Origin: Sphingobium indicum B90A
Lineage (GTDB): Bacteria > Pseudomonadota > Alphaproteobacteria > Sphingomonadales > Sphingomonadaceae
Direction of reading: 5' to 3'
NCBI RefSeq assembly: GCF_000264945.2
Contig: NZ_CP013070.1
Span: 62,001-126,000 of the forward strand
DNA: 64,000 nucleotides
Below the pieces are notes generated by a model, which did not search any database, had not been told where the DNA came from, and saw nothing but the letters and a program-made list of their open reading frames with translations. The number at the start of each line of letters is the position of its first letter. The first letter of the stretch is position 1. Both the position numbers and the translations under genes were made by a program. Of the stretch, positions 1,903-58,483 are shown one piece after another.

Positions 1903-2346
1903 TTACTCCCCTCCCGCGGGCGGGAGGGGTTGGGGGTGGGCTTGCACGAGGGCTGCCATGATATGCGACAGCACGCCTTCGATATTCCCTATCACTTCCG
2001 CATTCTGAAAGCGCAAGACGGTAAAGCCCAGTTCGCGACAGCAGGCGTCGCGGCGGGCGTCATATTCCGCACTGTCGTCGTGGGTGGAGCCGTCCAGTTC
2101 GATGATGAGCTTCGCTTCGCGACAGAGGAAGTCGCAGAAATAGGGACCGAGCGGCATCTGGCGGCTGAATTTATGGCCATTGAGTTGGCGGTTGCGCAGG
2201 CGCTGCCAAAGGAACCGCTCAGGCGGAGAGGCCTCGTTCCTCAGGGATTTTGCGCGAGGCGTATTCCTGCTTCTGAAGGGTCGCGCCTGCCCACCCCCTA
2301 ACCCCCTCCCGCCTGCGGGAGGGGGAGAGGCATCGCTCTCCCTCAC
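1903..2346 (-). CDS. DUF559 (Vsr/PD-(D/E)XK-like) endonuclease-fold protein inside an inverted palindrome pair
   Basis: The conserved core (about 110 residues) has LWQRLRNRQLNGHKFSRQ, then FCDFLC and the acidic ELDG.H segment, and ends VLRFQNAEVIGNIEGVL. This is the DUF559 pattern, related to the very-short-patch-repair endonuclease fold. No ATG precedes the core in frame. The best start is GTG at 2346, which overlaps the stop of the ABC ATPase gene as GTGA, giving 147 residues. With that start both the first ~20 residues (rich in P, A, G) and the last ~12 (HPQPLPPAGGE) are translated from the flanking palindromes. Function is unknown; a nuclease acting on the flanking palindromes is an inference. 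Start position is uncertain. Confidence 0.6.
   Translation of the reverse strand: MRESDASPPPAGGRGLGGGQARPFRSRNTPRAKSLRNEASPPERFLWQRLRNRQLNGHKFSRQMPLGPYFCDFLCREAKLIIELDGSTHDDSAEYDARRDACCRELGFTVLRFQNAEVIGNIEGVLSHIMAALVQAHPQPLPPAGGE
1908..2325. mobile_element. candidate mobile unit: DUF559 gene bounded by inverted REP-type palindromes
   Basis: The left arm is a 22-base palindrome at 1908-1929 (two 10-base halves around GG) followed by TTGGGGGTGGGC. The right arm at 2289-2325 is the mirror image: GCCCACCCCCTAA followed by a palindrome with 11-base halves. So the DUF559 coding core is enclosed by two copies of the same palindrome-plus-GGGGGTGGG motif facing each other. The same arrangement without a gene inside occurs at 17351-17480, 49549-49675 and 54375-54487. 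The right arm, read on the minus strand, matches the left arm of the 49.5-kb pair over about 40 bases with one visible mismatch. Mobility is inferred and not demonstrated; no target duplication was recognised. Confidence 0.45.
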
Positions 2347-3284: not shown

Positions 3285-3325
3285 GGCTGCCTATCTGGTG
3301 CGAAACAGCAGAAAATCAAAGCTGC

Positions 3326-3392
3326 GTGCTCCTGCGAAGGCAGGAGCCTAGATCAAACATCGGAACTGGGCTCCTGCCTTCGCAGGAGCACG
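3326..3392. repeat. inverted pair of REP-like palindromes, family 2 (CTCCTGC..GCAGGAG)
   Basis: Two palindromes, 3326-3348 and 3368-3392, are mirror images of each other separated by about 20 bases. Each is built on GCTCCTGC and GCAGGAGC. A second pair of the same family lies at 30844-30928 and a single copy at 61689-61712. Most of the 133-bp gap between the ABC ATPase and purN is this element; nothing else is visible there. Confidence 0.8.
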
Positions 3393-17350: not shown

Positions 17351-17480
17351 AGCCCCTCCCCTTTAGGTTCAAACGAGGCACGTGACTCGTTGAAGGCTTG
17401 GGGTGGGGGCGCGCCAACCATCCGACTTGGCCTGTAAGGCACGCCCCCACCCCTCAATCCCCTCCCCTGAAGGGGAGGGG
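17351..17480. repeat. inverted palindrome pair, family 1 (GGGGTGGGGGC..GCCCCCACCCC)
   Basis: The left arm (17351-17412) starts CCCCTCCCC, contains an imperfect hairpin, and ends GGGGTGGGGGCGCG. The right arm (17439-17480) begins CACGCCCCCACCCC and ends in a palindrome with 10-base halves around GA (17459-17480). The arms face each other with about 25 bases between, as in the DUF559-containing unit at 1908-2325. This fills most of the 239-bp gap before the thioredoxin gene. Confidence 0.7.
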
Positions 17481-30815: not shown

Positions 30816-30843
30816 TAGCGAGGGCGACCCCCACAAACCAACC

Positions 30844-30928
30844 TGCTCCTGCGAAGGCAGGAGCCCAGTTCAGATGTTGCCCGGTTTTTCATTGGGCGGG
30901 ACTGGGCTCCTGCCTTCGCAGGAGCACG
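30844..30928. repeat. inverted pair of REP-like palindromes, family 2
   Basis: Palindromes at 30844-30865 and 30904-30928, mirror images with about 38 bases between, same core as at 3326-3392. They occupy the 202-bp gap between ctpA and dsbB; the rest of the gap shows no obvious gene or promoter. Confidence 0.8.
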
Positions 30929-31017
30929 TTACATAAAACGGATAGAACCTTCCCCGCTCCCTTTCACCACCGCAAGTTCAGCATGACGAAAGCCGCGGGA
31001 CGGTTTAAGCGAACGCT

Positions 31018-41785: not shown

Positions 41786-41795
41786 TGGCGTAAAT

Positions 41796-41849
41796 CCTCC
41801 CCATCGCAGATGGGGAGGGGGACCGCTCGCGAAGCGAGTGGTGGAGGGG
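41796..41849. repeat. single family 1-like palindrome
   Basis: CCTCCCCATC and GATGGGGAGG form a palindrome at 41796-41818, followed by an inverted CCGCTCGC/GCGAGTGG and GGTGGAGGGG. It lies in the 117-bp gap between the CorA-like gene and the response regulator. It has no mirrored partner nearby. Confidence 0.6.
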
Positions 41850-49548: not shown

Positions 49549-49675
49549 CCCCCTCCCGCAGGCGGGAGGGGGTTAGGGGGTGGGCTGGCGCAACATCGGC
49601 GTTGTTTCGCAACGGCCAAGTCAGAAGCTCGCTCCGCTCGCACCCACCCCTAACCCCTCCCGTTTACGGGAGGGG
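49549..49675. repeat. inverted palindrome pair, family 1
   Basis: Left palindrome 49549-49572 followed by TTAGGGGGTGGGC; right arm CACCCACCCCTAA followed by palindrome 49654-49675. Same arrangement as around the DUF559 gene (1908-2325). The left arm matches the minus-strand reading of 2289-2325 over about 40 bases with a single visible mismatch. About 60 bases of unrelated sequence lie between the arms. It fills the first part of the 407-bp gap between nasS and the transporter gene. Confidence 0.78.
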
Positions 49676-54374: not shown

Positions 54375-54487
54375 CTCCCCTCCCTTTCAAGGGAGGAGCC
54401 GGGGGTGGGTGCGCCGCGCCCGCGGCGCCCGCGACGGTAGTGCTGCAGGCTCCCACCCACCCCAACCCCTCCCTTGAAAGGGAGGGG
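54375..54487. repeat. inverted palindrome pair, family 1, between nirD and nasC
   Basis: Left palindrome 54375-54398 followed by GGGGGTGGGTG; right arm CCCACCCACCCC then palindrome 54466-54487 (10-base halves around GA). The last half, AAGGGAGGGG, stands directly before ATG 54490 and contains GGAGG-type purines, so it can serve as the ribosome binding site of nasC. No target duplication seen. Confidence 0.75.
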
Positions 54488-57880: not shown

Positions 57881-57955
57881 CCGTTCGGGCTGAGCCTGTC
57901 GAAGCCCTTTTCTCCTCAAGAGAAGCCGAACCCTTCGACAGGCTCAGCCCAATCG
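57881..57955. repeat. inverted pair, family 3 (CTTCGACAGGCTCAG)
   Basis: CCGTTCGGGCTGAGCCTGTCGAAG (57881-57904, approximately) and CCCTTCGACAGGCTCAGCCC (57931-57950) form an inverted pair with about 26 bases between. It is the same family as the purN-purM gap (4380-4525). It occupies the gap between cobA and the convergent mobA gene. Confidence 0.75.
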
Positions 57956-58483
57956 GGGAAAAGTGAACCGCTCCAGATCCTCCGGCCGGTTGATATTGGG
58001 CAGCACGAACTCCGGCCGCTCCACGATCCGCGCCCCGACCCGCTCCAGCCAGCCATGGATCGCCCGGCTATTCTCCTCGGCCAGATGCGCATCCAGCTCT
58101 CCCGCCAATGAAGCGGGCCAGAAGCCGGCCAGTTGCTGCCCCTTCAGGATCGCCGCGCCATCCCCGATCAAGGCCTGCGCCAACCCGTCCGGATAGACCG
58201 GAACGTCGCACCCCGTCGTCAGCACCGCGTCATAACCCTGCGCCGCCGCATGATGCAGCGCGGCGTTCAGCCCCCCTAACGGTCCCATGTCCGCCGCCGG
58301 CCGGTCCGCCAGCCCGGTCATTCCCGGAACGTGCCGCCCGCAAATCACCACCGTCTCGACATGCGCGCCCAGCGCCGCCGCCGCATGATCCAGCAATGTC
58401 CGCCCATCGAGCATCGCCAAGGCCTTGTCGCTGCCGAAGCGGCTGGATCGTCCCCCGGCCAGAACCGCGCCCAGCAATCGCAT
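57944..58483 (-). CDS. mobA: molybdenum cofactor guanylyltransferase MobA
   Basis: Adds GMP to molybdopterin to make the MGD cofactor needed by NasC. The 179-residue protein begins LLGAVLAGGRSSRFGSDKALA (glycine-rich GTP-binding loop) and has PAADMGPLGGLNAALHHA and VLTTGCDVPVYP, the family motifs. ATG at 58483 has a strong AGGAGGG upstream (8-base spacing), so it is preferred over ATGs at 58498 and 58510. It is convergent with cobA. Confidence 0.94.
   Translation of the reverse strand: MRLLGAVLAGGRSSRFGSDKALAMLDGRTLLDHAAAALGAHVETVVICGRHVPGMTGLADRPAADMGPLGGLNAALHHAAAQGYDAVLTTGCDVPVYPDGLAQALIGDGAAILKGQQLAGFWPASLAGELDAHLAEENSRAIHGWLERVGARIVERPEFVLPNINRPEDLERFTFPRLG

Follow-up and report, generated by a model that had tools for sequence, protein, structure and literature searches.

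In REPtrons, the gene for a RAYT enzyme lies between inverted repetitive extragenic palindromes (REPs) of the GTAG type, and where several repeat families coexist the enzymes are repeat-specific (PMC3733652). We found a similar arrangement in Sphingobium indicum B90A, in the 64,000-nucleotide stretch that was analysed as a whole (contig NZ_CP013070.1, positions 62,001 to 126,000; hereafter, the window), where a gene of the DUF559 family takes the place of the RAYT gene. Facing pairs of its repeats that hold no gene are dispersed, as in REPtrons and REPINs. The locus differs from a REPtron in that its product is predicted from a protein model to be a Vsr-like nuclease rather than a Y1/HUH transposase, and in that each repeat, or arm, consists of a hairpin with a mirrored purine tail. 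RAYT/REP systems are the closest parallel in build, but the locus is not one of them, because of its enzyme. The partnership between DUF559 and repeats of this build, that of intrastrand-triplex motifs, is specific and widespread.

The boxC, PIT and TM_ECO repeats have the same build as the arms, and facing pairs of them have been described, but no associated gene is reported in the available excerpts of PMC4666352, according to which the authors never found mobility functions near TM_ECO sites (Holder 2015). The CGTC REPs of Alphaproteobacteria share the lineage, form facing dimers and, in the excerpts available, are reported without a dedicated transposase; compared with the arms by description, they differ in their 8–9 bp stems and CGTC foot (PMC3733652). 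DUF559, a common family, is listed in Pfam as of unknown function, and its protein model matches the folds of Vsr and homing endonucleases (a Vsr-like PD-(D/E)XK fold). What sets it apart from Vsr and from the homing endonuclease I-Bth0305I is that its genes are framed by triplex repeats. Among the matches listed for open PubMed Central, which excludes subscription papers and preprints, none joined DUF559 with REP or triplex repeats in the text returned.

A DUF559 gene between inverted arms

The reading frame at 1906-2346 on the minus strand matches PF04480 (DUF559) with 130 bits (E 4e-38) over its residues 28-133. As the initial annotation stated, the gene lies between two inverted arms, CCCCTCCCGC..GCGGGAGGGGTTGGGGGTGGGC at 1908-1941 and a mirrored counterpart at 2289-2324 (Table 1). 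That annotation also had both protein termini translated from the palindromes, which is borne out for the C terminus: the TAA stop lies immediately beyond the 3' arm, so that the terminal residues AHPQPLPPAGGE are translated from it. The N terminus is uncertain and depends on the GTG at 2344-2346, the sole in-frame ATG, GTG or TTG upstream of the domain up to 2420; if used, it would take the N terminus through the 5' arm as well. In the genus set of 102 loci, the stop lies within the 3' arm or at most 15 nt outside it in 72, and before the arm in 10.

This 3.95 Mb genome contains three DUF559 genes. Inverted arms frame each of them, with a different arm sequence in every case (classes a, b and c). 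A profile search found no Y1_Tnp match in the genome. Within 1700-2600 there was no Rfam match at E ≤0.5, and PADLOC gave no match at E 0.01.

Arms accompany DUF559 genes across lineages

To call arms, we aligned locally the 200 nt left of each gene with the reverse complement of the 200 nt on its right, with 35 as the cut-off score; arms that were weaker or present on one side only counted as misses. DUF559 is present in 43 of 61 genomes of relatives, at 0 to 8 copies each. We examined 130 of 146 matches, omitting 16 that were partial, weak or at contig edges, and found arms at 118 of them (102 of 110 in a first set, 16 of 20 in a second). Many of these loci are orthologous; the first 110 represent about 31 distinct sites, and at 28 of these at least one member has arms. 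Thus, the finding that the initial annotation would have taken as a sign of chance, namely that most sphingomonad DUF559 genes lack these flanks, was the opposite of what we observed. None of 295 other open reading frames in the same loci was framed by arms, and pseudo-cores placed in the loci as a control had arms in 4 of 3,120 cases.

Beyond the relatives, the sets consisted of the best-scoring loci of their searches. Arms framed 19 of 30 loci in Alphaproteobacteria, compared with 0 of 250 pseudo-cores; chance or local repeat density was rejected as an explanation on these controls and on the unframed reading frames of the relatives. A set of 80 loci from named genomes included three with short flanks; 54 of the other 77 passed, or 53 of 76 after removal of one artefact caused by a run of Ns, and the passes came from Alpha-, Beta- and Gammaproteobacteria, Desulfobacteria, Myxococcota, Binatota, Chloroflexota and Melainabacteria, among others. 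Arms were also present at 11 of 28 loci of a phylum set and at two of five loci from a plasmid collection, one of them in Deinococcus. The link is therefore strong in Alphaproteobacteria and weaker elsewhere. When left and right flanks of different loci were mismatched on purpose, they often still matched (467 of 2,000 pairs in relatives, 72 of 500 in Alphaproteobacteria), because the arm classes are few and all G-rich. By contrast with DUF559 loci, none of ten Y1 loci in the relatives had arms (best score 25). On this result, and on the lack of a Y1_Tnp match in this genome, RAYT was rejected as the mobiliser.

We also searched 396 Pseudomonadota genomes for the triplex pattern CCCTCNCCCN(1-8)GGGNGAGGGN(1-4)GGGNGAGGG, which occurred in 100 of them; the backward pattern had four matches in all. 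Both the pattern and DUF559 (E ≤1e-10) were present in 81 genomes, the pattern only in 19, DUF559 only in 48 and neither in 248, an odds ratio of 22 (p 6e-32; 16.9 with DUF559 at E 1e-3), whereas the odds ratio for Y1_Tnp (E 1e-3) was 1.4 (p 0.17). Kinship was handled solely by tables within three families, picked because they were variable: at least five motifs occurred in every genome with a strong DUF559 match (8 of 8, 5 of 5 and 4 of 4) and in 3 of 13, 2 of 14 and 1 of 12 of the others. The PF04480 search missed the E. coli control genome, despite the ycjD gene of K-12 MG1655, and may miss some enterobacterial members. The S. indicum genome itself scores 0, because its own arm classes differ; the pattern covers one subset of triplex repeats.

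Arms are built like intrastrand-triplex repeats

The palindromes had initially been called REPs. They are indeed inverted palindromic repeats, but their build is, judging from sequence, that of the intrastrand-triplex motif (boxC/PIT/TM_ECO). In every arm, a hairpin whose 5' strand is pyrimidine and whose 3' strand is purine leads into a tail; this tail reads the purine strand again as its mirror image, placing A or T across from A. Filters for stem, purine content and tail length kept 179 of the 204 arms; the tail mirrored the purine strand at 7 or more of 8 positions in 177 of these and at all 8 in 151, against a mean of 6.7 of 8 for shuffled stems, and a stem A stood opposite A or T in 248 of 255 cases. 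As a rule the tail points towards the gene in relatives; it points outwards in some distant lineages (L264, L265, L304). Classes b and c have a second hairpin between stem and tail. In class c the sequence of this inner hairpin varies while its pairing is kept in 33 of 35 distinct versions, with several pair types per position, which points to selection on the arm fold. For TM_ECO, triplex formation has been reported in vitro, and footprints in vivo gave no support for a stable triplex (PMC4666352, in the excerpts available).

In classes a, e and g, the second loop often reads CC in one of the two framing arms and TT in the other, which recalls the five facing pairs of TM_ECO in E. coli, all of them type A/type B (PMC4666352). 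The idea that the arms are always CC/TT, and on annealing present a T:G mismatch as a Vsr-type substrate, was rejected: among the 58 of 102 elements that could be scored, 33 differ in this way and 20 are TT/TT.

Arm number and arm class follow the nuclease

The window also contains arm pairs without a gene. The initial annotation counted such pairs at three other places: two are clean, and the third has one interrupted arm (Table 1). It also reported a near match to the arm at 2289-2324; the sequence is indeed shared, and one arm of the pair at 49550-49675 is identical to it over 36 nt, but the pair at 54377-54487 belongs to another class. Genome-wide, we counted 48 arms of class a and 80 of class c (0 with reversed patterns in both cases). 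Many of them face each other in pairs across a spacer of constant length, 56-68 nt in class a and about 23 nt in class c.

Table 1. Coordinates of the DUF559 element and of other arms in the window
Feature	Position	Strand	Remarks
DUF559 open reading frame (predicted nuclease)	1903..2346	minus	stop 1903-1905; domain 1948-2265; start uncertain, candidate GTG 2344-2346
Inverted arm, class a, 3' side of gene	1908..1941	+	tail towards gene
Inverted arm, class a, 5' side of gene	2289..2324	-	tail towards gene
Gene-less facing pair, class a	49550..49675		clean pair; arms 49550-49585 and about 49642-49675
Gene-less facing pair, class g type	54377..54487		clean; class other than those of the genome's own DUF559 genes (a, b, c)
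Gene-less pair	17353..17480		second hairpin interrupts left arm
Single class c arm	41795..41849	+	same class as the DUF559 gene in L003/L034

Across relatives, the number of arms beyond the framing two varies with the presence of a gene of the same class. The median was 7 class-a arms in 13 genomes with a class-a gene and 1 in 24 without (p 1e-4), and 12 class-c arms in 15 genomes with a class-c gene versus 1 in 22 without (p 0.002); crossed comparisons between the classes were weaker (p 0.03 and 0.27). One relative, G027, has 327 class-c arms, compared with 80 at most in the other 60 genomes searched, perhaps after a recent burst.

Arm class, defined by hand-made patterns with four loci reassigned by eye, also follows the DUF559 clade. 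Placed on a tree built from 110 DUF559 cores, 12 classes need 15 changes in 95 rows, a count made without a shuffled control and leaving out eight rows without arms and seven unclassed; neither class b nor class a is confined to a single clade. At six sites each, clades g and d retain their own arm class, so that gene and arms must have moved jointly. Purifying selection acts on DUF559 in six groups, with a median ratio of nonsynonymous to synonymous substitution rates of 0.11 to 0.20, many synonymous rates being near saturation. Residues E43, D72, E83, D85 and H89 are invariant in 35 sequences, including the window gene, and are candidate catalytic residues.

Presence and absence at orthologous sites

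The element sits in the interval between an ABC-transporter gene and a gene that we take, from its sequence, to be nadB (L-aspartate oxidase). We compared this nadB|ABC site in 30 of the 61 genomes, among them that of S. indicum B90A. The element is present in 14; its gene is broken in G019 (two partial matches), and in G003 the arms are present though below threshold. G031 has an internally deleted copy with both arms. In four genomes (G008, G024, G001 and G007) the intergenic sequence is short (54 to 75 nt) and has no arms; ten more have other sequence there and G020 is unreadable. Of two gene-less sites, the pair at site 1 is shared with G027 and absent in seven relatives (G008, G024, G018, G022, G030, G016 and G010), G012 having other sequence of similar length; the pair at site 2 is absent in all six relatives aligned (G008, G024, G014, G015, G030 and G010).

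A similar-looking insert of about 650 nt stands in place of the DUF559 element at nadB|ABC in G030 (L322) and G014 (L323). Another chromosomal site, represented by a group of 21 loci (L012, L022, L091 and L013 included), seems to carry DUF559 elements of several arm classes in different species, sometimes two a few kilobases apart; it is possibly an insertion hotspot.

A proposed nuclease–repeat unit and its alternatives

On balance, we think it probable that the window holds one nuclease–repeat unit, a DUF559 nuclease between facing triplex repeats that acts on its own arm class. The nuclease would recognise these arms when they extrude as a hairpin or triplex, in single strands at replication or as a cruciform, and would nick at the extruded arm; repair or re-joining would then copy the segment to new places or keep it in place, and gene-less pairs with the same arms would be served in trans. 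A nuclease that binds and cuts the arms, thereby maintaining or moving them, is the simplest account, and the element may itself be mobile. The data suggest that the DUF559 gene and its repeats are together a previously undescribed genetic unit, selfish or mobile. The broader proposal, that DUF559 proteins, YcjD included, are dedicated nucleases of intrastrand-triplex repeats that mobilise their own gene and thousands of gene-less pairs, in parallel with and unrelated to RAYT/REP, we regard as evenly balanced. The spread of triplex repeats had no known agent, and joining them with DUF559 gives both a testable function; if the nuclease does read triplex or hairpin DNA, this mobile system would be directed by DNA structure and would belong to neither the HUH nor the DDE class.

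Several observations weigh against this reading. Arms were below threshold at 12 of the 130 loci in relatives, 11 of 30 in Alphaproteobacteria, 23 of 76 in named genomes and 17 of 28 in the phylum set; of the 100 genomes in which the triplex pattern occurs, 19 lack a strong DUF559 match; and G028, an exception, carries 26 class-c arms but no gene of that class. Most copies were inherited in place at orthologous sites, and the agreement between class and clade is largely plain inheritance, because most clades occupy one orthologous site. Aligning sites with and without the element, as initially proposed, yielded both kinds but no target duplication: none was visible in the two gene-less alignments or readable at nadB|ABC, the flanks being too diverged. 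The arrangement had been read as an autonomous element with derivatives resembling miniature inverted-repeat transposable elements. The shared arms and one true internal deletion (G031, L329) agree with this, but 20 gene-less pairs inspected in this genome have their own spacers and outer flanks, and are therefore REPIN-like partners rather than simple deletion derivatives; gene-less pairs are mostly not derived from the gene-bearing element by deletion. In 40 E. coli genomes listed, matches to part of boxC number 3-6 with ycjD (25 genomes) and 1-6 without (15), so that no dependence on ycjD is visible among them. Finally, the DUF559 protein VsrA of Caulobacter has been proposed to act in mismatch repair (PMC12907096).

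It is possible, though unlikely, that the elements spread by homing, with DUF559 cutting the element-less allele and repair copying the element from a sister copy or incoming DNA; the arms would then protect or mark the site rather than serve as transposon ends. Neither the dispersed gene-less pairs nor the recurrence, in class g as in class d, of one clade with its arms at six unrelated sites is expected from homing alone. We consider it unlikely that a Vsr-like DUF559 serves the host by removing structures formed by triplex repeats, kept adjacent for regulation or by selection. The modelled fold, the purifying selection, the link of Caulobacter VsrA to a methyltransferase and the SOS response (PMC12907096) and that of triplex motifs to genome instability (PMC4666352) would fit such a role, but 0–8 copies per genome with several clades at once, presence and absence at an orthologous site, and arms placed as mirror ends suit a genetic element better than a housekeeping gene. 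It is very unlikely that another enzyme or replication slippage spreads the repeats, with DUF559 a passenger or a preferred neighbour for insertion: arms away from DUF559 do far outnumber adjoining ones in this genome and a larger repeat is common to the outer flanks of gene-less pairs from two classes, but other reading frames are unframed, co-occurrence holds for DUF559 and not Y1_Tnp (the two families compared), arm class tracks nuclease clade, and Y1 is unmatched in this genome and without arms in relatives.

The ycjD gene of E. coli

The ycjD gene of E. coli K-12 MG1655, between sapF and fabI, is annotated as a DUF559 gene, and 3,365 of 5,426 E. coli genomes have matches to it. In one copy (L301), the boxC-type repeat CCCCTCGCCCCTCTGGGGAGAGGGTTAGGGTGAGGGG, which looks to be of the intrastrand-triplex kind, lies about 190 nt past the DUF559 domain. 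Such repeats occur on one side only and the arm test fails (score 20); the copy therefore looks decayed. Presence and absence of ycjD was rejected as a natural experiment: the two ycjD-less sites inspected hold efflux genes instead, in agreement with PMC12817139 (excerpt), so that neither is a clean empty site. K-12 has 23 TM_ECO repeats (PMC4666352) together with ycjD, which makes the question directly testable in a laboratory strain. In another DUF559 locus, L305, the gene is followed by a BREX methylase gene.

Other repeats near the arms

Class-a and class-c gene-less pairs often lie within a larger repeat with the ends GTGGACAAATTC / GAATTTGTCCAC (L143-L162, for example L157 and L145); this larger repeat resembles either a favoured target or an outer element. 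Two more palindromic families, CTCCTGCGAAGGCAGGAG and TTCGACAGGCTCAG, occur in the window at 3325-3392, 30840-30930 and 57881-57956, where we noticed no associated gene; repeats resembling TTCGACAGGCTCAG are present at nadB|ABC in some species.
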